Assembly (NCBI GenBank): GCA_015487555.1
Contig: WFPK01000015.1
Span: 1-54,464, forward strand
DNA length: 54,464 nt
Source: Phycisphaerales bacterium
GTDB lineage: Bacteria; Planctomycetota; Phycisphaerae; Phycisphaerales; UBA1924
Direction of reading: 5' to 3'
Shown: in pieces, positions 9,601 through 29,616 of the stretch
Numbering within the stretch: position 1 is the stretch's first letter
How the letters are laid out: every line of letters starts with the position of its first letter
Notes under the pieces: model-generated
Seen by the model: the letters and a program-made list of their open reading frames with translations, nothing else
Told to the model about the DNA's origin: nothing
Databases searched by the model: none
Position numbers and translations under genes: made by a program

Positions 9601-10571
9601 GCATAGAGCGGAATGATCTCGGTGCCCTCGGGGAGGTGCTCGCGCTTGCGAAGCTCATGGGCGGTCTGGCGAATCTCGCGTTCGCCTGGCATGAAGATGA
9701 GCACATCGTCGTGGCGTTCGTTGACCAGTTGGGCAGCTGCATATGACGCCGCCTCATCGATCCGCATCCCGGTGTTGACATGCTCGGTCTCGTAGCGCAT
9801 CTCAACGGGATAGGTCCGCCCAGAGACTTCGATGATCGGCGCGGGGGCATTGACAGTCCCAAAGTGCTCGGCAAACCGATCCGCATCAATCGTCGCCGAG
9901 GTAACAATGAGCTTCAAATCCCGCCGAGTTTGCAAAAGTCGATGCATATAGCCAAGGAGGAAATCAATGTTGAGCGATCGCTCGTGCGCCTCGTCGATGA
10001 TGATCGCGTCGTACTGGCGGAGTTTGGGATCGCGCCGGGTTTCAGCGAGGAGGATGCCGTCGGTCATCACTTTGATGAGTGTTTGGTCACTCGTCGAATC
10101 AGAGAACCGAATCTTGGTGCCGACCTGCTCGCCGCCTTTGACATTGAGCTCGTCAGCGATGCGCGAGGCGACCGATCTTGCTGCGATTCGACGCGGCTGG
10201 GTGTGCCCGATCAATGCGCCAACGCCCAGCCCGATCTCCAGGCACATCTTGGGAAGCTGGGTCGTTTTTCCTGATCCAGTTTCGCCACAGACGATCGTCA
10301 CTTGATTGTTGCGGATCGTCTCGATGATCTCTTCACGCCGAGCGCTGACGGGGAGTTCTTCAGGATACGAAATCGCAGGCATCGCCCGCTTGCGCATCTC
10401 GTAGCTGGCGATCGCCTCTTCGAGATCGCGTTTGATCGCCGCTTCGACTTTGGTGCGCTGCTCGGGACTCTTCGACCGATCCAACCCACGCAATCGACTG
10501 ATATAGAGCCCCCGCATCCCCGGCGGACAGGCTTGGATCAACGCATCAAAGTTGGTTCTGGTATCAGTCAC
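6687..10571 (-). CDS. hrpA: ATP-dependent RNA helicase HrpA (DEAH box)
   Basis: At 1294 residues this matches the length of proteobacterial HrpA (about 1300). Visible helicase motifs are Walker A GETGSGKT at 96-103, DEAH at 193-196, SAT at 225-227 and the arginine-finger motif QRAGRCGRT. Downstream come the helicase-associated and OB-like regions and a long C-terminal part typical of HrpA (DUF3418-like). It unwinds RNA; in E. coli HrpA acts on stalled ribosomes and fimbrial mRNA processing. The start codon is GTG at 10571. The gene begins 3 bases after the stop of the BtpA-family gene, so the two form an operon. Confidence 0.96.
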   Translation of the reverse strand: MTDTRTNFDALIQACPPGMRGLYISRLRGLDRSKSPEQRTKVEAAIKRDLEEAIASYEMRKRAMPAISYPEELPVSARREEIIETIRNNQVTIVCGETGSGKTTQLPKMCLEIGLGVGALIGHTQPRRIAARSVASRIADELNVKGGEQVGTKIRFSDSTSDQTLIKVMTDGILLAETRRDPKLRQYDAIIIDEAHERSLNIDFLLGYMHRLLQTRRDLKLIVTSATIDADRFAEHFGTVNAPAPIIEVSGRTYPVEMRYETEHVNTGMRIDEAASYAAAQLVNERHDDVLIFMPGEREIRQTAHELRKREHLPEGTEIIPLYARLSAAEQQRVFKPSGRPRIVIATNVAETSLTVPNIKSVVDPGMARMKRYNPRTKIHGLMVEPISQASANQRAGRCGRTASGVCVRLFDEADYDARDEFTQPELLRSNLASVILQMADLKLGDPEQFPFLDRPENRQWRDGRDTLHELGALDEKEQLTKLGKAMARLPVDPRIARMVIAANDEGCLHDVLIIASALSSQDPRVRPHEKRDAADEAHAQFQVAGSDFLGYIKLWDWYHDQHKNLTRRKLWRACEKVYISARRFDEWREVYRQLRGLCIELGYNPKKGHDDPDAVHRALLTGLLANIGTKGEKHEFKGARNSAFSISPGSALFRAKPKWVMCAEIVRTSKVYARTLASIDPKWIEEAGAHLIKKTHSDPHWDEESGRVIADEKVTLFGLDIVPRRTIQYGSIDPVMAREIFIHHALVDDQMRSSSKALKHNRKLIANLGTLQAKARRDDLIADHHTLFAFYDAKLPKDIFSGKAFDRWAKKMESVNPGLLKMTQADVLEFAPAEITPETYPDAIEVSGAHSKLKYAFEPGQDIDGATIRVSIAALHQLTRQQVDWAVPGLIPKRIEALVRSLPKGLRRQFDANQIAAELTPVIESSGGSIEAQLASVLTKRTGITIKPKDFRTDQLDPFLFARIEVIDDHGKTLGASRDLGELQGKFAQQATQVIQEAGGDIERTGMIGWEFDELPETIEFSRKGSPKIVGFPSLMVEADTVSLKVLATRWEADLHTHAGLGLLYGLAIRRELRLRLKNLPGYTKLSMLAAACGMSAQLETIVWTRVGLVCCADNQETPRSKEEFELGLLGSWDHGVDETNRVISNLTQIFDSLMRIEGRLDEPHPDTWRSAIADMHAQLDMLLDNNALVITPTRWLWCYARYLRAMDIRLNKLRSIGPDRDAKMAERVYAWTKCLHELMAQGAHTAEVADEFWTLRWMVEEFRVATFAQELRTSVQVSEKRLREQLDKIIHA

Positions 10572-16161: not shown

Positions 16162-16833
16162 CTATGCCGACTTGTCATTATCCTTCGAGACCACCTGCCA
16201 GCTTCGAGCAAAGGCTGCCACCGCCGAGTGCATCCGTGACTTCACGGTTCCCAATGGGATGCCGAGGTCTTCTGCAATCTGTGCATAGCTCATTCGTTGG
16301 AAGTAGGCCAAGAGAAGCACCTCACGAAGGGCAGGGCCGAGTTGGTCAAGTGCTTGCTGCACCTGCTCGTCTCGCTGGGCAAGGTCCATCGCCTCGTCTG
16401 GAGCTGGGACATCCACCTCCAAGAGATCAATAAACGAAGCACCGGGTTCTGACTTGCGGATCGGGGCCGAGAGTTCGACCGTCTTCCGTCTGTTCCTCTT
16501 ACGAAGCATGTCCCGTGCTTTGTTCGCAGCAATTGTAAAAAGCCAAGGTCTAAATCGTCTCGAGGTGTCAAATGTGGCTGCCGAGATGTGAATCTGGAGG
16601 AAGGTCTCCTGAAAAATGTCCTCGGCTGCTGCCCGATCGCCCACCATCCGCGTGAGAAATCGCAGCAGATCATCATGATGCCGCTCGATCAACTCCCGAT
16701 AAGCATCGGGATCATCGTTGCGGAAGGCCTCGAAGACCTCTTCGTCAGATTTTGATTGCCAATCGCCCACAAAGCCCTCTCGGTTCTGGTTCATACGCCC
16801 ATCCATACCCCGTCTGTTCACTAGGCGATGCAC
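16162..16833 (-). CDS. ECF RNA polymerase sigma factor
   Basis: A 223-residue ECF sigma factor. Region 2 reads DPDAYRELIERHHDDLLRFL, AAEDIFQETFLQI and RRFRPWLFTIAANKARDML. Region 4 reads LGPALREVLLLAYFQRMSYA, then QIAEDLGIPLGTVKSRMHSA. The 5' end is uncertain: ATG codons at 16833, 16806 and 16794 are all possible and none has a strong ribosome-binding site. It forms a unit with the anti-sigma-like gene 23 bases downstream and is divergent from a second sigma gene. The signal it answers to is unknown. Confidence 0.93.
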   Translation of the reverse strand: MHRLVNRRGMDGRMNQNREGFVGDWQSKSDEEVFEAFRNDDPDAYRELIERHHDDLLRFLTRMVGDRAAAEDIFQETFLQIHISAATFDTSRRFRPWLFTIAANKARDMLRKRNRRKTVELSAPIRKSEPGASFIDLLEVDVPAPDEAMDLAQRDEQVQQALDQLGPALREVLLLAYFQRMSYAQIAEDLGIPLGTVKSRMHSAVAAFARSWQVVSKDNDKSA

Positions 16834-17020: not shown

Positions 17021-17665
17021 ATGGTATTGACATTGAGTATGCAACCAAGTCGCCCCAGCGCAGAGCCCGAGGAGCTAAGCAACATTGTTGCCCAGGCTGC
17101 CAATGGCGATGAATCTGCCTGGGAGCAGCTTGTCGGGCTCTATGCCCGGCGGGTCTTCGCGATGGCGCGGAGCAGGTTGCACGATGAAGACCTTGCTGAG
17201 GAGATTACCCAATCCGTGTTTGTCACCATTTCGACCAAACTCAACCAGTCGGCGTACACCGAGCAAGGGCGATTCGAGCCCTGGTTGTTCCGGATCACGA
17301 TGAATCGGGTGCGGGATTACTGCCGAAAGCGCTCGCGCCATGCCAAACCGATGGCTCCCGAACATTTCGCAAGTGTCGAAGGACAACCCGAACCCGACAT
17401 CCACGCCAGGGACGACAATCAGCACCAACTCAACACCCTGCGATCGGCGATGGAGCAGCTCTCCGAGACCGATCGCGAGATGATCGCCCTGCGTCATCAT
17501 GGTCAGCTCAGCTTCAAGCAGATCGCCGAGATGACCGGCGATCCCATCGGCACCCTGCTGGCAAGGCACCATCGGGCACTCAAAAAGCTCCGCACCATCA
17601 TCGAACAACAAACAGACCAACCCCGCCTGGCCTCGCCTGATTCCAATCCCGGAGATGAATCATGA
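17021..17665 (+). CDS. ECF RNA polymerase sigma factor (second)
   Basis: A 214-residue ECF sigma factor, divergent from the one at 16162. Region 2 is seen in DESAWEQLVGLYARRVFAMA, DLAEEITQSVFVTISTKL and GRFEPWLFRITMNRVRDYCR; region 4 in LSETDREMIALRHHGQLSFK, then QIAEMTGDPIGTLLARHHRA. The start is uncertain: ATG at 17021 lies directly against GAGAAGG with no spacing, so TTG at 17027 (6 bases from it) or ATG at 17039 could be used instead. The stop overlaps the next start by 4 bases. It heads a three-gene operon. Confidence 0.92.
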   Translation: MVLTLSMQPSRPSAEPEELSNIVAQAANGDESAWEQLVGLYARRVFAMARSRLHDEDLAEEITQSVFVTISTKLNQSAYTEQGRFEPWLFRITMNRVRDYCRKRSRHAKPMAPEHFASVEGQPEPDIHARDDNQHQLNTLRSAMEQLSETDREMIALRHHGQLSFKQIAEMTGDPIGTLLARHHRALKKLRTIIEQQTDQPRLASPDSNPGDES

Positions 17666-19593: not shown

Positions 19594-20499
19594 TCAAGGC
19601 GATGATGCCCACCGATCCCCCCGCCAGTAAGGCCTGGTCAAATCCACCCGGTAGTGCTCTACAATCTGAGGCACAGACACATCCCGCGCAGGCGCATCTG
19701 TCTGCAAATACGCATTGACCTCCCAGGCATCTCGGTTCGCTGGCGATGCAAGCTGCCCCAAAAGCACCAGCTCGAGCTTGATGAGCTGACGCAAAGACTC
19801 ATCATCCGGGCCTGTCCCGATCGGGCGGCGGTGATCGCTGCACACCATCCGACGCACCTCCCCATCATTGCGCTGGGTCACAAACACCCGCCCCCGGCAA
19901 TCATCCCCCGAAGCATCCGCGATCATCTCCGAGAGCAAACGATCCATCCCAACGGGATCCAACCCCGCCCGGCGAGAAGCTTGACGAATCGTCTCGCGGA
20001 TCGCCTTCTTTCCAAGCAGTTCAGTCGCCAGCTGAGGATCATGGAACCGCGCAGCATACACAGACCGAGCAGCATCCTGGCGAAGCTGAGCAGACTCCCG
20101 CGCCCGTGCATCACGATGCTCAATCCAAGCACCACGCCGATCCGAATCCATCGAATAGGCCAAATCCCACAACGACGACGCCATCGCTGGCTCGGGCTCG
20201 ACCGATGCCAAAGCGATACACATGCTCGCAGCAAGCTTGGAGTTCCCCGCGCGATGAGCAAGCCCAATCCCAACAGCAAGTGTTTGCATCGCAAGGTCAC
20301 GCTCTTGCACACCCTGGGCATTCGCGCCCATCGACTCGCCTGCGCGAAGATACCCATCGAGATTCCCCGGCTCAAGGCGTGCGAGCTGGCGCACGATTGA
20401 AGTGCTCGGCTGCCCGATCCGCACCGAGGATGCACCACCCAAGGCGAGCACTGCCCCCAGACACAAGCTGACCAAGAGAACTCTTTGATGCCTGCTCAT
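19594..20499 (-). CDS. Exported protein, last gene of the vWA/ExbBD cluster
   Basis: I do not recognise a family. From the ATG at 20499 it has 301 residues. GGGGAG lies 4-5 bases upstream and the start overlaps the previous stop in ATGA, so this start is preferred to one 45 bases further up. The N-terminus is a signal peptide ([20 protein letters not shown]). The body is alpha-helical and Ala/Arg-rich, with a helical-repeat look ([20 protein letters not shown], then [20 protein letters not shown]). It probably works in the periplasm with the TPR proteins encoded just upstream. Confidence 0.72.
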
Positions 20500-23186
20500 G
20501 GACTCCCCCCTTCCAAACGCACAATCCAAAGCTCGGCGATGCACCGCTCGACTTGGGCGATCTGTTCAATCGCTGTGTCGGACTGGTCAAGCCGAGACTC
20601 AAGCTCTGCGAGCAGATCACCCACACGCAACGACGACCCCGCCACCTCGCGTCGGGTCAACAGCGCGAGGAGTTCGCAAACCCCACGCTGGTAGGCAAGA
20701 AACTCATGGAGCGAACTCATCGCCCGAGCAAGACGGATATCAATCGCCGACTCAATCTGCCCGGCCTCACGCCAATCGACCGCGTTCGAGCTTTCGCCTT
20801 GCCGAGCTTCAAGAATCATGCGCTGAGCGAGCTGTTCCACGCGAGCAATCGCCCCCCCACCAGCGGGCTGAGCTGCAGGCGATGCATTGGCAACTCGATC
20901 CGCATAAGCCAACTCGAGCTCATGCTCGAGCACCGAAAGTTCAGTTTCAGCACCCCGGGCCAACGATCGCGCCAGGCGAGACAACAATGCGTTGTGAGCA
21001 TAAAGATACCACGAATCCGCAACACGCGACGGGAGCACATCGCCAACCACCGCAACCACGAGCTGTTCGAGCCGAACACTCACACGCTTGTTGGCGACCA
21101 CATGATCGAGCGCCAAGAGCACCGAAGGGTGATCCTTATACCGGATGATCTGGGTGCTGGCGCTGCTTCGGATTTGGGAGTCGGCGTGGAGCGTTGCCAG
21201 GAAAACCAACGCATGGGCCGAGTTGACCCCAGGCCCATCGTTGGTCACAAGCTCGGCGAACAAGGCGCTGAGCTCGCTGGCGCTCTGCGCATTGATCGCT
21301 TGCTGGGCCCATTGCAAATCACGCTGGCTCGTCGTCAGCACAACAACTTCAGGCTCGGGCACGGTACTCGGCGAGGCCCGCGCCCCCGCGAGTGTATCGG
21401 CTGCGATCGCATCTTCGCCTCGGGCAAACTGCCAAGCTCCAGTGTTGAGCCGAGCGAGCTCGACGATTGCCTCGATCGCCTGGCGCTGATCCATCTGCAC
21501 CGGCGTAATTGAAGTGCGCAGGCGAAGCTCATTGATCAACTCCGGGAACTGATCCACCTTGACCGACTTTGGAGTTGGTGTCGACCAGGCCCGGCGATAG
21601 GTCTCGGCGAGTTCAAGCCGTTGGGGAAGTGTCGAGCGGGGATTGAGCACCATCTGGGCATTGACATACTGAGCACCCGAATGGGTTGCGATCGCTTCGG
21701 TAAGTGCTGCGAGCCTGGGCGTACGCACTGCTTGATCCGCAAACTGGCCAAGCAACCAATATCGCGCAGGCGAATCCTCCCGCCAGGAAACGGCGCTGAC
21801 CAGTTCGACCGCTGCTTGTTTCCATGATTCGCTCGAAGCCTCAGCGTCGCGCAGGCGCGACGACATCGCCGAGAGTACAAACCGAGTGCGCTGTGGTTCA
21901 TCTTCCCGCGTCGCTGCCCGAACACCTTGAATCCAATCCTTCCACCACGACGGATCATCCCTGCGCGCATCAACACCCAAGAGCCCCGAGATCGGCACAA
22001 GTGCATCGAGAACACTCGATGTTTCGATCGAATCATTCCCCGAACACCGTTGGCGGATCTGACCAAACACCTCCCGCACCTCTGGGCCAATCCCCGGCTC
22101 AGAAAGCACTACATCAATCACCGCCGACTGAATCATCACCTTGGAAGGCTCGTCTGCAAATCCATCACACGAAAAAACAGAAACCAACGCATCCAACGAA
22201 GGCCCCGTCTCCGATACACCACGGACAAACTCAGCAATGTGCAGCCCGGCACGATCGAGCGCCGCTGCGGGAAAGGCCCTCCAGTCTTCAACAAATTGGG
22301 GATACACCTCCGCAAAGCGTTCAACACTGAGCTCCATATCTGACTGGGCCCTGCGGGCGAGTTGATCGAGCTCGTGGGCAATCGCGGTATAGTGTGCCAA
22401 CTCTTTCCGATCGTTGATCGGTTGTTGCCCAATCCCGCCGGGAGATGCCACCCCCGCGCCAACCCCATCGCCACTCCCATCGGCATCGGCTTGGACGGGA
22501 AATCCTCCATCGCCACCAGCTTGCATCGAACCCAACCGCGTCGGTGATATCACAACCGCAAACACAACCGCCATCGCCATGACCAACAACAACCCATACG
22601 CAGCGAGCCAATGAAACGACCGGGCAGGTGGCGGCTCAATCAGATACACCCGCTCATTGAATCCAGGCAGTGTCTCTGTTGGCAAAGCAACCCGACGCGC
22701 AGAATCGTGCGGCACGCGAGGGCTCAACGCCCCAATAAGCTCGAGGGCCCCCACCCGGTTGACCCGGGCAAAGTGGGCCAGTCGTTTGCGGGCAACCGCG
22801 TTCCATCCGCCGCTGGCGCCGATGAGCATCTTCGCGCTCCGAATAAACCCCGGCGTCAGACGCGAGGATTGGGGAGATGGCTTCCATGCTTTGGGCACCG
22901 TGACCGGCGTCCCCGCGGGCCAGCGACGCGCAAGCTCGATGCGAAGCTTGGGATCGAGCAGCTGCGAAGCGGCAGCATGAACCGCAAGCCGAACCTCGCT
23001 CGCATCAGGCGTCGATCGATGCCGATGCCGATCAATCTGGTGCAGCCTGCGATGGCACGCCCGGATGATCTGAGCGTCCGAAACAATCTCATGAGGCAAA
23101 CCCAGAAGCGCAAATGGACCGCCCGCCCCGGCGTCTTCGCCAAGAAACTCCACGATCGGCGACCGAGATGACCGCGAAGCAATCAA
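20496..23186 (-). CDS. Large single-pass membrane protein with degenerate J-like N-terminus
   Basis: The 896-residue product begins with a segment that reads like a DnaJ domain (FALLGLPHEIVSDAQIIRAC, then a long Arg/His-rich helix and SQLLDPKLRIELA), but the HPD motif is missing: the loop reads IDRHRHRST. One membrane helix lies at about 192-213 (HWLAAYGLLLVMAMAVVFAV), followed by a Gly/Asp-rich linker and about 650 residues of helical, TPR-like exported sequence. The start is a TTG at 23186 that overlaps the preceding stop (TTGA), consistent with coupled translation; a GTG 33 bases downstream is an alternative. The function is unknown; a membrane scaffold for the cluster is a guess. Confidence 0.72.
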   Translation of the reverse strand: MIASRSSRSPIVEFLGEDAGAGGPFALLGLPHEIVSDAQIIRACHRRLHQIDRHRHRSTPDASEVRLAVHAAASQLLDPKLRIELARRWPAGTPVTVPKAWKPSPQSSRLTPGFIRSAKMLIGASGGWNAVARKRLAHFARVNRVGALELIGALSPRVPHDSARRVALPTETLPGFNERVYLIEPPPARSFHWLAAYGLLLVMAMAVVFAVVISPTRLGSMQAGGDGGFPVQADADGSGDGVGAGVASPGGIGQQPINDRKELAHYTAIAHELDQLARRAQSDMELSVERFAEVYPQFVEDWRAFPAAALDRAGLHIAEFVRGVSETGPSLDALVSVFSCDGFADEPSKVMIQSAVIDVVLSEPGIGPEVREVFGQIRQRCSGNDSIETSSVLDALVPISGLLGVDARRDDPSWWKDWIQGVRAATREDEPQRTRFVLSAMSSRLRDAEASSESWKQAAVELVSAVSWREDSPARYWLLGQFADQAVRTPRLAALTEAIATHSGAQYVNAQMVLNPRSTLPQRLELAETYRRAWSTPTPKSVKVDQFPELINELRLRTSITPVQMDQRQAIEAIVELARLNTGAWQFARGEDAIAADTLAGARASPSTVPEPEVVVLTTSQRDLQWAQQAINAQSASELSALFAELVTNDGPGVNSAHALVFLATLHADSQIRSSASTQIIRYKDHPSVLLALDHVVANKRVSVRLEQLVVAVVGDVLPSRVADSWYLYAHNALLSRLARSLARGAETELSVLEHELELAYADRVANASPAAQPAGGGAIARVEQLAQRMILEARQGESSNAVDWREAGQIESAIDIRLARAMSSLHEFLAYQRGVCELLALLTRREVAGSSLRVGDLLAELESRLDQSDTAIEQIAQVERCIAELWIVRLEGGSP

Positions 23187-25837
23187 GGCACTTCTCCATC
23201 AGCAGATCCATCATCGGGTCTATCAACAGCCCCGCCTGCGGGTGTGGCCGAGCCCGGTGCCTGATCCCCGAAAAGGGCTGCGATCTTTTCGTTCCAAGGC
23301 GCAGGCCCAAGGTTGGGATACAGCACCCGGTACTGGTCATAGGCTGCCAAAGCCCGCGAAAAATCAACATGCTTCATCACACGCAACGACTCGTACCGCG
23401 CTTCATACCATCGCTCATCCCCGGGCGTTTGCGCTGCCAAGAGCATCGACCATGCTTCGAGCTCATGGGGATAGTCCTTGACCACGCCAGCGAGTTTGGC
23501 AGTTCGGCGAAGTCCGGGCTCGGAAGGCTGCCCGCGATCAAGCACCAGAAGCGAAACACGCAGCGCCAGGTCACGCGACTCGACATCGCTTCTGGACTCC
23601 CAAAGATACCCCGACACCTCGGCGATCATCTCGGCAATACTTGAAACCTGCAACCCCAAAGGCTCGGGATACGCCGGCATCTGGTCGGCGAGCAACACTG
23701 TCCCCAGATCGACCACCCGCCTTGCTGCCCGCTCATCTTTCCCTGCTCGCCATTGCCCAATCGAATCATTGAAGATCAGAATACGCGCGCTCTGCGCCCT
23801 GCCCGGATCGAGCAAAACAAGCTCTGCGAGCAGGTCCATCGAATCATTGTGCCTCTGGGTCAGCACCGCGAGCTCAAGCTGACGATAGACAAACTCCGAT
23901 CGGTAAACACCAAGCGAAGCATCAAAGCTCATCATCCGCATCCCATGCGCGATGAGCTCATCAGCGAACTCGATATCCGCAGGCGATGCCCGCAGCGCCA
24001 GATCGAGCCCGATCCGAATCGTCCCCATCCGCATACGCGCATCGGCAAGCTCAACCACTTCATCGGGCTGTGCATCCTCGATCCACCGCACCATCGCGAG
24101 CACCTGGCCAAGGAGCACAGTATCGGCAAACCCCAAAGCCCGGAGCTGCTGATACTCAAGCCCGACGAGCGCCCGGCGGGCGGGGAGCACAATCGGATCA
24201 TCATCAGCAATCGACCAGAGCGTATCAATCGCAACCTGCGAATCAATCGTTCCGCGCATCGCATGGCGAAGGACAAGCTGGGCCGAGCGAGGCGTCGATG
24301 GATACGCTGCGATGTATTCACGAACCGCCTCGTCAAGCTCATCGGATGTCGCGCGCCCTGCATTGGTGTTGATCGAATCCATCGCGGCGATCCGCATCCA
24401 CCGCGCCTCTTCGATCACCTGCGCATTGACCGATTCCTTGATGAGCTGATCGCATACCTTGATCGCCTCGACCGCCCGTCGGCTTCGGATTTCCGCATAC
24501 GCCAGCTTGAGCAAACAATCATCGCGCTCGTCGGGAAACCGGTCCGCATCGGGCGACTTGAGCGCCTGAGCGAAGATCGCTGCCACCGAGGCGTACATCC
24601 CCGAATCCCCCGCCTGCTCTGCCTTGTTCAACGCGGCGAGCGCGCTGGCATAGTTGGTAACAAAGCTGTCAGCCACCAAAGGGAGCGAGTCGAACCGCCG
24701 ATACAAATCGAGCACATGCCCGATCTCCCTTTGTTCGATAAGCTGCTCGATTGCATACCGGGCAACCTTGCTCGCCTCGCCGATCCCCCCGCGCCCGACA
24801 TGCCCCAACTGCATCGCTTCGAGTGATCGCAATGCAAGAAACCGGGCATCAGCAACACGCATCGGCGTCTCCTCGCCCCGCTGCTTTTCAAGAAACAACG
24901 CAAACCGATACACATCGATCCAATCTCGGTCCGCTGCCATAATCTGCAAGAGCCGATCCTGAGCGGCTGCCTGAACATCGGATGTAACATACGCCGAATC
25001 TGCTACAAACTTCGCCCACGCTCGCCCCGTCAGAGAATCATCCGATTGTGTATACGCCAGCGCCACACCGATCGCCGCCCGCGCGACATGCTCGAACTCG
25101 AGCGTTGTCTCATTGAGCACCGAAAACTGAGGCATATTGCCTTCGGCCCCCAACAACCAACCGAACGAAGAAAAAACATCCGAAGGCACATGCTGATCCT
25201 TGAGCACCGCCAACGAATACCCCGTCCACGCATGATAATAGTGCCCAAGCGAACGGAACCGACGCAGATCCGCCAGCTCGATCCGAGTCTCAGGCGTGCT
25301 CATCCGCGCCGAACGCAATCGCAATCGCTCAAGCTGAGCCACCTGGGGATCAAGCTTGGAAACAAGAATCCCCAGCTCCCGATTGAGCCCCGAGAGCTGC
25401 TCGATCGCATCGGCACGCTGGGCCGAATCAAGCAGCTCTAACTTGGCCAACTCAACACTGGACTCCACACCAAGATACCCCTCGATCGCCAGCTCAATCC
25501 TCAGCTCGTACATCGGCGCCGAACTCATCCTCGCAACCAACGAACGCGCCCGATTGAGCACGATCTGCCGATACGGATCATCCTGATCGAATGAGCGGAG
25601 CTGATCGAGGTACAAATCCGAAAGCTCCTCAATGAGCGCGGATTGCTCAGCTTCATCTTTTGATGCACGGATGCGGTCTTCGAGCTGCACCTCGAGCAAG
25701 GAAATCATCTTGTGCGCCTTGAGATACGCTGCGACCTGCTCATCGGCGGGCGTCGCCAATGCAGCAGCGGCGCCCAGGCACAGGCACACGATTGAGCCCA
25801 GAATGATTGCTCGCTTAGGTACCATCGGAAGGAACAT
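23183..25837 (-). CDS. Exported TPR-rich protein
   Basis: About 884 residues from the ATG at 25837, which has GGAG 2 bases upstream; an ATG at 25825 is also possible. An N-terminal signal peptide (KRAIILGSIVCLCLGAAAAL ending ATPA) is followed by long helical repeats, for example RYAIEQLIEQREIGHVLDLY and CLLKLAYAEIRSRRAVEAIK, of TPR type. The start overlaps the end of the ExbD-like gene by about 23 bases, and the stop overlaps the next start. A periplasmic protein-binding scaffold working with ExbB/ExbD is the likely role, by analogy with TolA/Pal-linked YbgF-type TPR proteins; the substrate is unknown. Confidence 0.78.
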   Translation of the reverse strand: MFLPMVPKRAIILGSIVCLCLGAAAALATPADEQVAAYLKAHKMISLLEVQLEDRIRASKDEAEQSALIEELSDLYLDQLRSFDQDDPYRQIVLNRARSLVARMSSAPMYELRIELAIEGYLGVESSVELAKLELLDSAQRADAIEQLSGLNRELGILVSKLDPQVAQLERLRLRSARMSTPETRIELADLRRFRSLGHYYHAWTGYSLAVLKDQHVPSDVFSSFGWLLGAEGNMPQFSVLNETTLEFEHVARAAIGVALAYTQSDDSLTGRAWAKFVADSAYVTSDVQAAAQDRLLQIMAADRDWIDVYRFALFLEKQRGEETPMRVADARFLALRSLEAMQLGHVGRGGIGEASKVARYAIEQLIEQREIGHVLDLYRRFDSLPLVADSFVTNYASALAALNKAEQAGDSGMYASVAAIFAQALKSPDADRFPDERDDCLLKLAYAEIRSRRAVEAIKVCDQLIKESVNAQVIEEARWMRIAAMDSINTNAGRATSDELDEAVREYIAAYPSTPRSAQLVLRHAMRGTIDSQVAIDTLWSIADDDPIVLPARRALVGLEYQQLRALGFADTVLLGQVLAMVRWIEDAQPDEVVELADARMRMGTIRIGLDLALRASPADIEFADELIAHGMRMMSFDASLGVYRSEFVYRQLELAVLTQRHNDSMDLLAELVLLDPGRAQSARILIFNDSIGQWRAGKDERAARRVVDLGTVLLADQMPAYPEPLGLQVSSIAEMIAEVSGYLWESRSDVESRDLALRVSLLVLDRGQPSEPGLRRTAKLAGVVKDYPHELEAWSMLLAAQTPGDERWYEARYESLRVMKHVDFSRALAAYDQYRVLYPNLGPAPWNEKIAALFGDQAPGSATPAGGAVDRPDDGSADGEVP

Positions 25838-26243
25838 AGCTCCGTTTCTGGAACCCCGCATTGCGTGCCGCCTGAAGGGCTGCTGCGATCGCCGAGATCG
25901 GCACATCAGGATCGGACTTGATCGCAATGCCGGGTTCTTTGGGCAGGTTTTTGAGCAATGCTTCGAGCGATTGCCGATCACGCACCGCAACCTCACCGAT
26001 CACAAAGATCGGCTCGTTCCCCTGCAACCGAATCTGCACAATCTGAGGCTGAAGATCACTCGATCGAACCCCGCCACCCTCGGTCTGCAAGGTCGCCGGG
26101 AGTTTGTGCTCATCTTGCGCAAAGTTCGCGGTAACCAGAAAAAAGATCAACAACAAAAACACCACATCAATCATGGAGGTCAGAGGCAACGCCCCAAGCC
26201 GAGCCGATCGACGCGGTGATTTCAAAGCACGCGCCCGAGTCAT
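25815..26243 (-). CDS. ExbD/TolR family protein (copy 2)
   Basis: A 142-residue inner-membrane protein with the ExbD layout: short basic cytosolic N-terminus, one membrane helix containing the proton-relay aspartate (LTSMIDVVFLLLIFFLV, Asp26), and a periplasmic domain ending in a segment like DPDVPISAIAAALQAARNAG. With ExbB it forms a proton-driven motor. The ATG at 26243 overlaps the preceding stop in ATGA. It differs clearly from the neighbouring ExbD, so the complex may be hetero-oligomeric. Confidence 0.93.
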   Translation of the reverse strand: MTRARALKSPRRSARLGALPLTSMIDVVFLLLIFFLVTANFAQDEHKLPATLQTEGGGVRSSDLQPQIVQIRLQGNEPIFVIGEVAVRDRQSLEALLKNLPKEPGIAIKSDPDVPISAIAAALQAARNAGFQKRSYVPSDGT

Positions 26244-26668
26244 GATCCACCCCCCGGATTCACCGTCGCCAGCTTCCACCGCTGCACCCCGGTGTTCGAC
26301 AGACGAAGCAAAAGCCGATCAAGGTGCACCGCCGAGGCATGGCGATCCGGGCGGATGAGCACATCGAACGGATCCGAAGCATCCTGCCCGAGCACCCCCG
26401 CCCGCGCCAGCCGTTCGATCTCGATCAGGCTCGTCTGGGCCGACTCGACAAGATAAGTCCCGTCATTGGTCAGGTCAATAATCATCGCAGGCTCATGGCG
26501 AACCTCGGCCTCATCGCCGGGCTGATGGGGCAGATCAATCTCCGTCCGTCGGAGCTCACCAAACTGCGAGGTGAACATGAAGAAAATAATCAGCTGAAAA
26601 ACCACATCGATCATCGAAGTGAGATCAACCGAAATCATGTGCCGAGATTGATTCGCCCGCCTGCTCAC
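26240..26668 (-). CDS. ExbD/TolR family protein (copy 1)
   Basis: A 142-residue ExbD-type protein with the membrane helix VDLTSMIDVVFQLIIFFMF holding the conserved Asp21, followed by a periplasmic domain. It starts with GTG at 26668, which overlaps the ExbB stop (GTGA), and its stop overlaps the second ExbD start. Sequence identity to the second copy is low outside the membrane helix. It is expected to form the proton channel together with ExbB. Confidence 0.92.
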   Translation of the reverse strand: MSRRANQSRHMISVDLTSMIDVVFQLIIFFMFTSQFGELRRTEIDLPHQPGDEAEVRHEPAMIIDLTNDGTYLVESAQTSLIEIERLARAGVLGQDASDPFDVLIRPDRHASAVHLDRLLLRLSNTGVQRWKLATVNPGGGS

Positions 26669-27432
26669 GCCTTGGATACCCCCTGCGATGCCCCCTGCGC
26701 CGGCTTGGGCGACTCGGCAGATGTGCTCTGGGTCGATTCGAGCGGCGCGATCATCTCGTCGATCACCTCGTCGATCTCGGTCGTGAGATGGTCGATGCGA
26801 TTGCGCAGATAGGTATACATCGCCGTCGAGGGGATCGCAACGACCAACCCGAGCACGGTGGTAATCAGCGCCTGCGAGATATTCCCCGCCAGCGCATCGG
26901 GGCGCGCGGGCCCATCGGAGAGCGTGATCGTATCGAATGCCCCCACCATCCCCACAACCGTGCCCAAGAGCCCGAGCATCGGCGCAACCGATGCGATAAG
27001 TCCGATCCCATCGGTCAGCCGATACAGCCGATCGACCTCCAACTGACCGATCTCATCGACCGACGAACGCAGCTCAAGCATCCCAAAGGCCGAGCGCGAA
27101 GCCCGGACCAGCCCGCTTCCCACCACACGCGAAAGATAACTCGTCGATGCTTCATCCTCGCACCGCTTGATCGAACGATCAATATCCCCATCGGCCAGCA
27201 GCGCCCGCAGATCATCAACAAGCTCAGGCGGCGCTAGGCGCTCACGCCGAATCCGAAAGAGCTGGGCCCCGATCATCCCGATCGCAACGAACGAGATCAG
27301 GATAATAATCATCCCGATCGGTCCGCCTTGGGCGATGTATTCGAGCAACGATCGGCGAACATGAGCCGATTCTTGCGCAAGGGTCAACGACGCGGGCTGA
27401 GCAAAGACTGGCAACTGAAAAATCTCATTCAT
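26665..27432 (-). CDS. ExbB/TolQ/MotA family proton-channel protein
   Basis: A 255-residue protein with three membrane helices in the ExbB/TolQ order: GGPIGMIIILISFVAIGMIG near residue 36, then the conserved pair IGLIASVAPMLGLLGTVVGM and ALITTVLGLVVAIPSTAMYT. It should pair with the two downstream ExbD proteins to convert proton flow into mechanical work on an energy transducer. No TonB or TolA gene is next to it; the first gene of the operon, encoding a vWA protein with a TonB-like anchor, may take that role. The gene overlaps the preceding one by 8 bases. Confidence 0.94.
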   Translation of the reverse strand: MNEIFQLPVFAQPASLTLAQESAHVRRSLLEYIAQGGPIGMIIILISFVAIGMIGAQLFRIRRERLAPPELVDDLRALLADGDIDRSIKRCEDEASTSYLSRVVGSGLVRASRSAFGMLELRSSVDEIGQLEVDRLYRLTDGIGLIASVAPMLGLLGTVVGMVGAFDTITLSDGPARPDALAGNISQALITTVLGLVVAIPSTAMYTYLRNRIDHLTTEIDEVIDEMIAPLESTQSTSAESPKPAQGASQGVSKA

Positions 27433-28543
27433 GAGCGGAATGCTCCTTGGAGAAGGACTGAAATAGTAAAATCTCGGATTGCCCGCCCAACCCGGCCCTA
27501 CGGGCCCAACGCATCAGCTCCGCCCCCCACGGCGACCGGTCGGTTCGGACAAGGTATTCATTGGCAATCTGCGACGCCAACACAACAAGGGAATGGCTGA
27601 TATGATCGAAACGCACGATCACATGGATCAACTCGATCACCCCTCGCTCGTTGGATTCTGTATCTGCTTCGCCCAAAAGTGACACCCCGATCGCCAAACG
27701 GGCCCAGAGCTCGATCCATGTGTCTGGATCAGTCCGGATTCGACGCTTGAGCGCCACGCGCGCAGCCAATCGCTTCTGGGCATCCTGATGCACCTGGGCA
27801 ATCACCATCTCCTCGAAGAGCCTGATCCCCGGATCGCGCCCTTCACGCCCGCGCGTCATCGCGCTGAGCTTCTCGAGCAGCTCCAAAGCTTCGGGCGTGC
27901 GGTGCGCCGAAGTGTCGAGCGCGAGCTGATAATATCCAAAGATCGCACGCTGACGCTCAGTGATGCGATCACCATCAGGAATCGACCCGACACTTTGCCC
28001 ACGCTCACGCGGGCCAAACACCGGCGGCAACTCAATAAACAGACCAAAATCCGCGTCAAATCCAGAAACCAACCGCGAACCAAACCCGCCACCCGATGCC
28101 CCAAGCCAGCTGACCAAAGGCTCCACCGCACCAACCCGGTGCTGCCGATCAAGCCGACACCGCACCAACCCAATGCTCACATCCGCCGATTGCAATCCAA
28201 CCCGCCAAAGGTACTGCCCTTCGAGCTTGGTGTAGAGTGCCTCAGCGCCGAAGTAATCCCCTCGCATCAGCCTTGCATGCGCCCGCCAGGCATCGTCTGC
28301 AATCTGCTCATACGCTTTATACTCTGCTGTCGCCGGGCTCAGCCCACGAACATCATACCAAGGCACAACCACCGGAATAATCGCCTCACCCACCTTGATC
28401 CCAACCCCCTGCGCACCAATCCCATCGACACGCCCAACACTCGGCTCAGCGGCTGACCACCGGGTAAGCTTCGAAAGAGCAGGGGGCTCACTGGCAACAC
28501 CAACAATCATCACCAAACAAAGCGCCCAAGCAGAAAAAATCAT
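27425..28543 (-). CDS. Exported helical-repeat protein of the vWA/ExbBD cluster
   Basis: No named family recognised. The 372 residues start with a signal peptide (MIFSAWALCLVMIVGVAS). A beta-rich segment follows (VDGIGAQGVGIKVGEAIIPV, VPWYDVRGL). The rest is helical and TPR-like (WRAHARLMRGDYFGAEALYT, and later YYQLALDTSAHRTPEALELL). Its start overlaps the vWA stop in ATGA and its end overlaps exbB by 8 bases, so it is an integral part of the operon. It is most likely a periplasmic partner of the vWA protein. Confidence 0.74.
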   Translation of the reverse strand: MIFSAWALCLVMIVGVASEPPALSKLTRWSAAEPSVGRVDGIGAQGVGIKVGEAIIPVVVPWYDVRGLSPATAEYKAYEQIADDAWRAHARLMRGDYFGAEALYTKLEGQYLWRVGLQSADVSIGLVRCRLDRQHRVGAVEPLVSWLGASGGGFGSRLVSGFDADFGLFIELPPVFGPRERGQSVGSIPDGDRITERQRAIFGYYQLALDTSAHRTPEALELLEKLSAMTRGREGRDPGIRLFEEMVIAQVHQDAQKRLAARVALKRRIRTDPDTWIELWARLAIGVSLLGEADTESNERGVIELIHVIVRFDHISHSLVVLASQIANEYLVRTDRSPWGAELMRWARRAGLGGQSEILLFQSFSKEHSAHE

Positions 28544-29616
28544 GGCCTGCCCTCCTTGATGTGCGTGAACTTCCCGCCCGATCGCTTGGCGATATTACGG
28601 AGCATATTCTCCGCTGCCTTGGCATCGTGCGTATTGGCCAGCTGCCCAAAGAGAATGCTATGGATCGGGATACGCTCGCGCCGATTCATCTGCCGAATCA
28701 ACGCAGGCACATCGGTCTCGACCAACCCATCGGTCATGAAATAAATCGCATCGGGCTCGGGATCGAGCGCAAAGACCTCGCTAAACGCAGCGATCGGCTT
28801 CGTCCCACCAGTGGGCGAGATCCCAAAGAGCCCCGTCCCCGCCAGGCGCTTGCTCTTGGGCTCTGCCCGAATCCACTCTGTATTGCCAAAGAGCAGGATC
28901 GGATCGTTTGAGTAGAGCACCACAAAGAAATCTGCATTCCCATCGAGCCCGGAGATTGATCGCAAGAGCTCCGCCCGGGTCAGCTCCCACCGCGTCATAT
29001 CACCTTGCCCTGAGAGTGCATTCATCGACCCCGACACATCCACAATGTAGGCAAACCGCCGACCCTGAGCTTCGAGCCCGAAGAAGCTCGCCCCATCGCC
29101 AGCACCTGCCCCTGCGCTGCCGGTGGTCGCGTCGATACTCGTCAGCGACCCGCCCCCCGGGTTCAGGCTCGGCGCGATCGAGTCGGCGAGCTCATTGACC
29201 GACTGCTCCGAACCGGCATCGGCGAGCAGATCAATCTCCACAACCATCTCGTTAGGGGTCACCGCGACCTCAAAGCTCTCGAACTCAATCCTCGGCGACG
29301 ACATCTGAGCAAGATCCGCCGAGGTGATGACCGCAAAGTCAACCTCCCCAACATCTCCGCCTCCAGCATCGCCAAATCCGAAATCAATGGTAATCAAAGA
29401 AGCGATCAACAAAATCACCAGATGGATCAACACCGAAATACCGATGCCCATGATGGTGGCCCGCTCAATCAAACGCCTGCGGGCGGACTTCTCCCCTGCC
29501 TTGGCTGCTCCCTGCTGGGCACTCGAAATGGCTCGTTGGTGATCCAAGTGGGTCGTCGTCCCTTGCGTCCTTGCCCGTGCACTGCCTGCCAAAGCCAAAG
29601 CCAAAGTTAAAGCCAA
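28540..29616 (-). CDS. vWA-domain protein with TonB-like membrane anchor
   Basis: The first gene of the cluster encodes up to 358 residues. A membrane helix at about 55-77 carries S61-V-L-I-H65, the SxxxH pattern by which TonB contacts ExbB/ExbD. A Gly/Ser/Ala-rich linker leads to a von Willebrand A domain from about 185, with an intact MIDAS start DVSGSMN (Asp193, Ser195, Ser197) and a later MTDG. It is therefore a candidate energy transducer with a protein-binding head in place of the TonB C-terminal domain. The start is uncertain: TTG at 29616 lies in a hexamer repeat; a TTG at residue 24 or the ATG at residue 56 are alternatives. Confidence 0.88.
   Translation of the reverse strand: MALTLALALAGSARARTQGTTTHLDHQRAISSAQQGAAKAGEKSARRRLIERATIMGIGISVLIHLVILLIASLITIDFGFGDAGGGDVGEVDFAVITSADLAQMSSPRIEFESFEVAVTPNEMVVEIDLLADAGSEQSVNELADSIAPSLNPGGGSLTSIDATTGSAGAGAGDGASFFGLEAQGRRFAYIVDVSGSMNALSGQGDMTRWELTRAELLRSISGLDGNADFFVVLYSNDPILLFGNTEWIRAEPKSKRLAGTGLFGISPTGGTKPIAAFSEVFALDPEPDAIYFMTDGLVETDVPALIRQMNRRERIPIHSILFGQLANTHDAKAAENMLRNIAKRSGGKFTHIKEGRP

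Follow-up and report, generated by a model that had tools for sequence, protein, structure and literature searches.

The eight overlapping minus-strand genes at 19594–29616 of the window (the whole 54,464-nucleotide stretch analyzed here, contig C15 of a draft genome of 2.64 Mb and 93% completeness) probably encode a proton-driven force machine of the Ton/Tol type that crosses the envelope and carries a vWA domain at the far end of its pulling arm. The idea of a single proton-driven envelope machine, put forward in the initial annotation, is supported by the conservation of the operon, by the residues of the motor, and by an SxxxH helix and a D-box-like strand in the vWA protein; from these we infer its assembly, its coupling to protons, and the role of F as the partner of the arm.

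The features of the operon, with genes named A to H, are collected in Table 1. A reading-frame check recovered all of the frames and end-to-end overlaps previously described: ATGA at A/B, D/E, and G/H, GTGA at C/D, TTGA at F/G, 8 bases at B/C, and 23 bases at E/F (from the first ATG). The length claimed for F also stands, counting from the ATG given in the table, and the true start of E is likely the ATG that overlaps the stop codon of D. Pfam searches of the operon proteins matched MotA_ExbB in C (1e-26), ExbD in both D and E (6e-18 and 2e-17), VWA_3 in A (6e-5, just under the cut-off), and, weakly, only TPR in F; B, G, and H matched no Pfam family in this search.

Table 1. Positions in the window of the operon genes and of the residue features of protein A.
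Feature	Position	Strand	Basis or remarks
A: vWA force transducer (proposed role)	28540..29616	-	probable start TTG 29547; N-terminal membrane helix, ~100-residue linker, C-terminal vWA
Ser61-x3-His65 in A membrane helix (TonB/TolA-type motor contact)	29422..29436	-	residue conservation across loci
D-box/motor-box-like strand VDFAVITSADL in A	29311..29343	-	27 residues after His65; pattern count and TonB peptide
vWA metal site (MIDAS) of A: D193-x-S195-x-S197, T272, D296	28729..29040	-	invariant
B: exported protein, small beta domain (residues 24-69) and TPR-like helices	27425..28543	-	AlphaFold2; weak TPR matches in relatives
C: ExbB/TolQ channel subunit	26665..27432	-	Pfam, fold match, residues
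D: first ExbD/TolR, channel Asp21	26240..26668	-	Pfam, residues
E: second ExbD/TolR, channel Asp38 (numbered from first start)	25815..26279	-	Pfam, residues
F: 884-aa exported TPR-type protein, A's most constant partner	23183..25837	-	start ATG 25837
G: cytoplasmic J-like domain (~16-90), membrane helix 191-212, disordered linker, large all-helical solenoid	20496..23186	-	AlphaFold2, profile comparison
H: exported helical protein	19594..20499	-	start ATG 20499, 301 aa

Judged by its sequence, the vWA protein A is itself a transducer of the TonB/TolA type, carrying the motor-coupling end of those proteins. It probably starts at TTG 29547 and not at 29616, because relatives begin M-[DN]-[HQ] at that column. 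Residue conservation was counted over 80 loci that have both A and F, a few contigs being counted twice because they were reached by two routes. The single membrane helix of A contains a Ser-x3-His motif, described as the motor contact of TonB and TolA (PMC12204202), in which Ser61 is conserved in 77 and His65 in 76 of the 78 loci with a residue at that position. The Leu position of the TonB/TolA SHLS motif is not conserved in A, as counted, nor is the second Ser, as judged by eye. Beyond the helix, the segment VDFAVITSADL resembles ISVTMVTPADL of TonB, the ExbD-binding D-box; the TonB D-box peptide QPISVTMVTPAD binds the periplasmic dimer of ExbD as an added strand (PMC10907165). The D-box-like pattern was present in 51 of 88 A proteins versus 1.6 expected after shuffling, a count that measures conservation within the family and not an independent discovery, because the pattern was written after the window protein had been seen. 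Where present, the strand sits 24–31 residues past the His (mostly 25–28); by our own count the corresponding spacing in E. coli TonB is 25. As worded, the pattern was absent from the A proteins of f68, which belongs to another class. About 100 residues along the sequence separate the helix from the vWA domain, for which VWA_3 matched 19 of 22 A family members (best 2.6e-18) and a fold search matched A to solved vWA chains. Wherever a locus has a residue at the metal-site positions, that residue is invariant.

The nearest solved chain to C is TolQ (1.5e-10), and Thr158 and Thr192 of C are each invariant in the 71 loci with adjacent C-D-E. The channel Asp is intact in both D and E and equally invariant (71/71 in each), which confirms the earlier description of two different ExbDs with this residue retained. 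Gln187 of C occupies what we take to be the position of Glu176 in E. coli ExbB; unlike in the ExbB of the Ton system, the residue at this position is mostly Gln, Leu, or Lys, can be Val or Ile, and is Glu only twice. In the ExbB tree, C falls in a clade of its own, apart from the other ExbBs encoded in the genomes that carry it. Other ExbB/MotA proteins in the window genome are a flagellar MotA beside flagellar genes, an ExbB on contig C107, and an ExbB-ExbD-ExbD set on contig C75. The last of these (locus L062, G000:C75, ExbB at 9719-10387) is a paralogous set with no recognized vWA gene adjoining, and its ExbB clade was found in several of the examined genomes of the family, including those in which C-D-E do not adjoin A and which have no C-clade ExbB.

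Among the partner proteins, AlphaFold2 predicts B to consist of a small beta domain and TPR-like helices (mean pLDDT 89), and relatives of B give weak TPR matches. The predicted model of G (pLDDT 78) shows a J-like domain and one membrane helix, followed by a disordered linker and then a long solenoid of helices. When B and G were compared by fold with structures already solved, no match reached E≤0.001, and what did appear were generic repeats of the TPR and HEAT type. The degenerate J-like domain reported in G proved real by profile comparison, reaching a probability of 92% (pairwise E 6e-7) against the J domains of relatives, whereas four control segments of G gave 0.1–0.7%. HRH stands in place of the HPD motif in the G of the window, and most relatives have lost HPD too; hence we describe G as J-like and not as a proven Hsp70 partner. 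An ARC6/Ftn2-like topology for G (J-like domain, membrane helix, helical domain) was discarded, as no match supported it. In 45 loci, of which 44 are convincing, H comes directly after G, usually overlapping it by at least 4 bases. The sequence CPxC...CxxCxGxPG in several H homologues (L120, L042, L109, L059, L104, and others) resembles a zinc ribbon, here within an exported protein; the motif is degenerate in the H of the window. For F, three loci of family f30 (L085, L086, and L089) encode proteins of ~890–1000 aa that match only its last 100 residues and are possible distant relatives; no ExbB was found nearby within the stretch examined.

Gene order and strand recur in relatives at 19–68% protein identity. 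The order A-B-C-D-E-F-G is common to the genus, the family, other families of the order, and f68; most of the better matches among the loci retrieved by name, themselves largely Phycisphaerales MAGs of Planctomycetota, have it too. This recurrence, as compared at the protein level, exceeds chance, and the conserved neighborhood in other Planctomycetota on which the initial annotation had staked its proposal is present across families and in a second class. The profile of F matched 81 of 392 genomes of the phylum, many by short, weak C-terminal matches, while full-length or near-full matches occur in family f1 (15 of 15 sampled genomes), f2, f4, and f68. Next to A lie the divergently oriented genes frr (40 loci) and pyrH (31 loci). 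Smaller sets exist: A-C-D-D-F in genome G308 and in a Sedimentisphaerales MAG, and A-F-G together, without B or motor, in G042. Thus, A and F are the most constant pair. The literature on planctomycete gene essentiality yielded no paper naming the operon genes. Near the operon of the window lie two divergent genes for ECF-type sigma factors, as assigned by sequence (16162-16833, minus strand; 17021-17665, plus strand), each of which adjoins a gene for an anchored or exported protein.

The C-D-E trio is kept in place in 71 of the 80 loci; the other nine retain A and F, and most also B and G, with C-D-E not adjacent. Four of these nine motorless genomes (G032, G042, G435, and G437) carry the trio elsewhere, and their trio ExbBs group together (99/93) inside the C clade of the ExbB tree. 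In the remaining five (G024, G035, G433, G434, and G436) we found only paralogous ExbBs and none of the C clade. On the simplest reading, the trio moved once and was later lost in some genomes, in which A may have come to rely on the paralogous ExbB-ExbD-ExbD set; the five genomes may instead have gaps in their drafts, or an A that works without a motor. The nine loci, and the five genomes in which no C-clade motor was found, would suit a view in which the vWA protein, the TPR protein, and G make up a scaffold or adhesion complex of their own, with the ExbB/ExbD motor an optional neighbor that its function does not require. We regard this as rather unlikely, given that the A proteins of motorless loci retain the TonB/TolA-type membrane Ser and His wherever their N-terminus is present, and that the trio adjoins A in 71 of the 80 loci and is found at another site in four genomes.

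The core of this arrangement has a published counterpart. Williams-Jones et al. 2025 (PMC12204202) predicted vWA force transducers with a TolA/TonB-like helix, a motor box, and a vWA end domain, whose genes adjoin those for TolQ, two TolRs, and a TPR protein in the PVC group, and for which that text gives no known phenotype. The same text states that the SHLS motif occurs in “many” vWA transducers and describes AF3 docking of the transducer helix through its conserved His, an independent prediction. The window operon, also from the PVC group, shows each feature of this class that can be tested by sequence. The Ser and His of the SHLS helix are conserved in nearly all A proteins; the disordered linker with a motor-box strand, a domain II of ~100 residues in the published class, has its counterpart in the strand-like sequence motif and in the ~100 residues between helix and vWA; the C-terminal vWA is unrelated to the end domains of TonB and TolA; and TolQ-like, two unlike TolR-like, and TPR genes adjoin. 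In contrast to the class as that text describes it, the vWA gene comes first here, B, the J-like G, and H are conserved, and variants exist with the trio elsewhere. The system had been put forward as a candidate new one, which does not hold for its core; as far as the text of PMC12204202 shows, the additions are the constant partners B, G, and H, the distribution, and the nine motorless loci, four of them with a detached motor. Some examples in that paper may be close relatives of the window operon.

In the trans-envelope machine that we propose, C would form the ExbB/TolQ ring, with D and E as an ExbD-type axle. Through Ser61 and His65, the membrane helix of A would dock on the side of the ring, and the D-box-like strand of A would dock on the domains of ExbD in the periplasm. 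As protons pass through the ring, A would be pulled or remodeled, and its vWA domain would transmit this to a partner in the periplasm, most likely F, which it would bind in a metal-dependent manner. The remaining parts of the assembly would be B, H, and the G solenoid, with the J-like arm of G on the cytoplasmic side. As to output, we lean, at somewhat under even confidence, toward envelope housekeeping (Tol-like linking or remodeling) rather than nutrient uptake, because the operon is near-universal in the family, adjoins housekeeping genes, and comes without a recognizable receptor. Gliding or surface adhesion, with the vWA as an adhesin-like coupling, has been suggested for the class (PMC12204202) and would draw on a vWA with an intact metal site, TPR and solenoid partners, and a TolQR-type motor. 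That the present operon serves such a role is nevertheless unlikely: an adhesin for the surface or outer membrane is missing from it, the anchor of A lies in the inner membrane, the genome also encodes a flagellar cluster equipped with a MotAB of its own, and housekeeping better explains why nearly every genome of the family has the operon.

Compared with the Ton system, the operon has the ExbB/ExbD motor, the SxxxH helix, and the D-box-like strand in common, but A ends in a vWA in place of the TonB C-terminal domain, there is no TonB-dependent receptor, and two ExbDs are present. In the 93%-complete genome, TonB_C and TonB_2 had no match and the TonB-dependent receptor (PF00593) was absent, and no outer-membrane partner is encoded within the operon. 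The reported lack of TonB, TolA, and receptor therefore holds for the C-terminal domains and the receptor, but not for the motor-binding end, which A carries; a separate TonB system using these ExbB/ExbD proteins finds no support in this genome. Across the phylum, TonB_C was found in 269 of 392 sampled genomes; in family f1 it matched in 2 of 15, both weakly. The notion that the operon replaces TonB was dropped, since TonB_C coexists with F in f2, f4, and f68. Given the missing TonB_C and receptor here and the coexistence elsewhere, the operon is neither part of a recognizable Ton system in this genome nor a general Ton replacement. The TonB-like motor end of A, and the absence of TonB_C from most sampled genomes of the family, where another system may thus serve uptake, would both accord with an importer that energizes outer-membrane polymer uptake through a receptor type that Pfam models miss. 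Such an importer is, however, quite improbable, as the genome has no TonB-dependent receptor barrel, no barrel or substrate-binding gene was recognized in or beside the operon, and the operon and TonB coexist in other families. A ZorAB-like anti-phage system with an ExbB/MotA motor, to which a weak ZorA match of C pointed (E 8e-4, 16 bits), was rejected as having practically no likelihood: the match is to the generic channel domain, there is no Zor effector (ZorC/D or ZorE), no other gene matches PADLOC, and the pyrH/frr neighborhood is stable in many relatives, unlike that of a defense island.

Tol-Pal resembles the operon in that C is nearest to TolQ among solved structures and that the genes form a chromosomal operon with a TPR protein (compare CpoB). 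The vWA nevertheless replaces the TolA end domain, and the operon contains no TolB or Pal, neither of which was recognized beside it; three OmpA-domain proteins are encoded elsewhere in the genome, one of them by a MotB-like gene. The Bat aerotolerance operon combines a MoxR ATPase, several vWA Bat proteins, and TPR proteins. The present operon likewise joins vWA and TPR proteins, but has ExbB/ExbD, a single vWA with a TonB-like anchor, and no MoxR among its eight genes.

TonB and TolA are the two well-understood transducers; the phylum in which the present one is conserved is unusual in its envelopes and its division. If this transducer is a third, with an unrelated end domain, the ExbB/ExbD motor would be a general power unit with interchangeable arms. 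A bolder and more doubtful possibility is that Planctomycetota, in addition to Ton and Tol, possess a third permanent machine that spans the envelope, one of eight parts, with a periplasmic vWA arm and a cytoplasmic J-like arm, that performs core envelope work in TonB-less cells and whose relocatable motor still serves it. His65, the D-box-like strand, the MIDAS, and the ExbD Asp constitute a directly testable residue set, and B, F, G, and H are the first candidates for what the arm pulls on.

A second arrangement, found at loci L143, L146, L150, L155, L158, L159, L160, and L163, consists of a vWA with an SxxxH helix, followed after ~1-1.5 kb (one gene) by ExbB and two ExbDs, and appears to be a parallel system of vWA transducers in Phycisphaerae. 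Its ExbBs form a separate branch (L143, L150, L160, and L163 in the tree). The L150 record is titled Alphaproteobacteria and has a planctomycete-like vWA/ExbB/ExbD/ExbD locus, which likely reflects a misbinned or mislabeled MAG.
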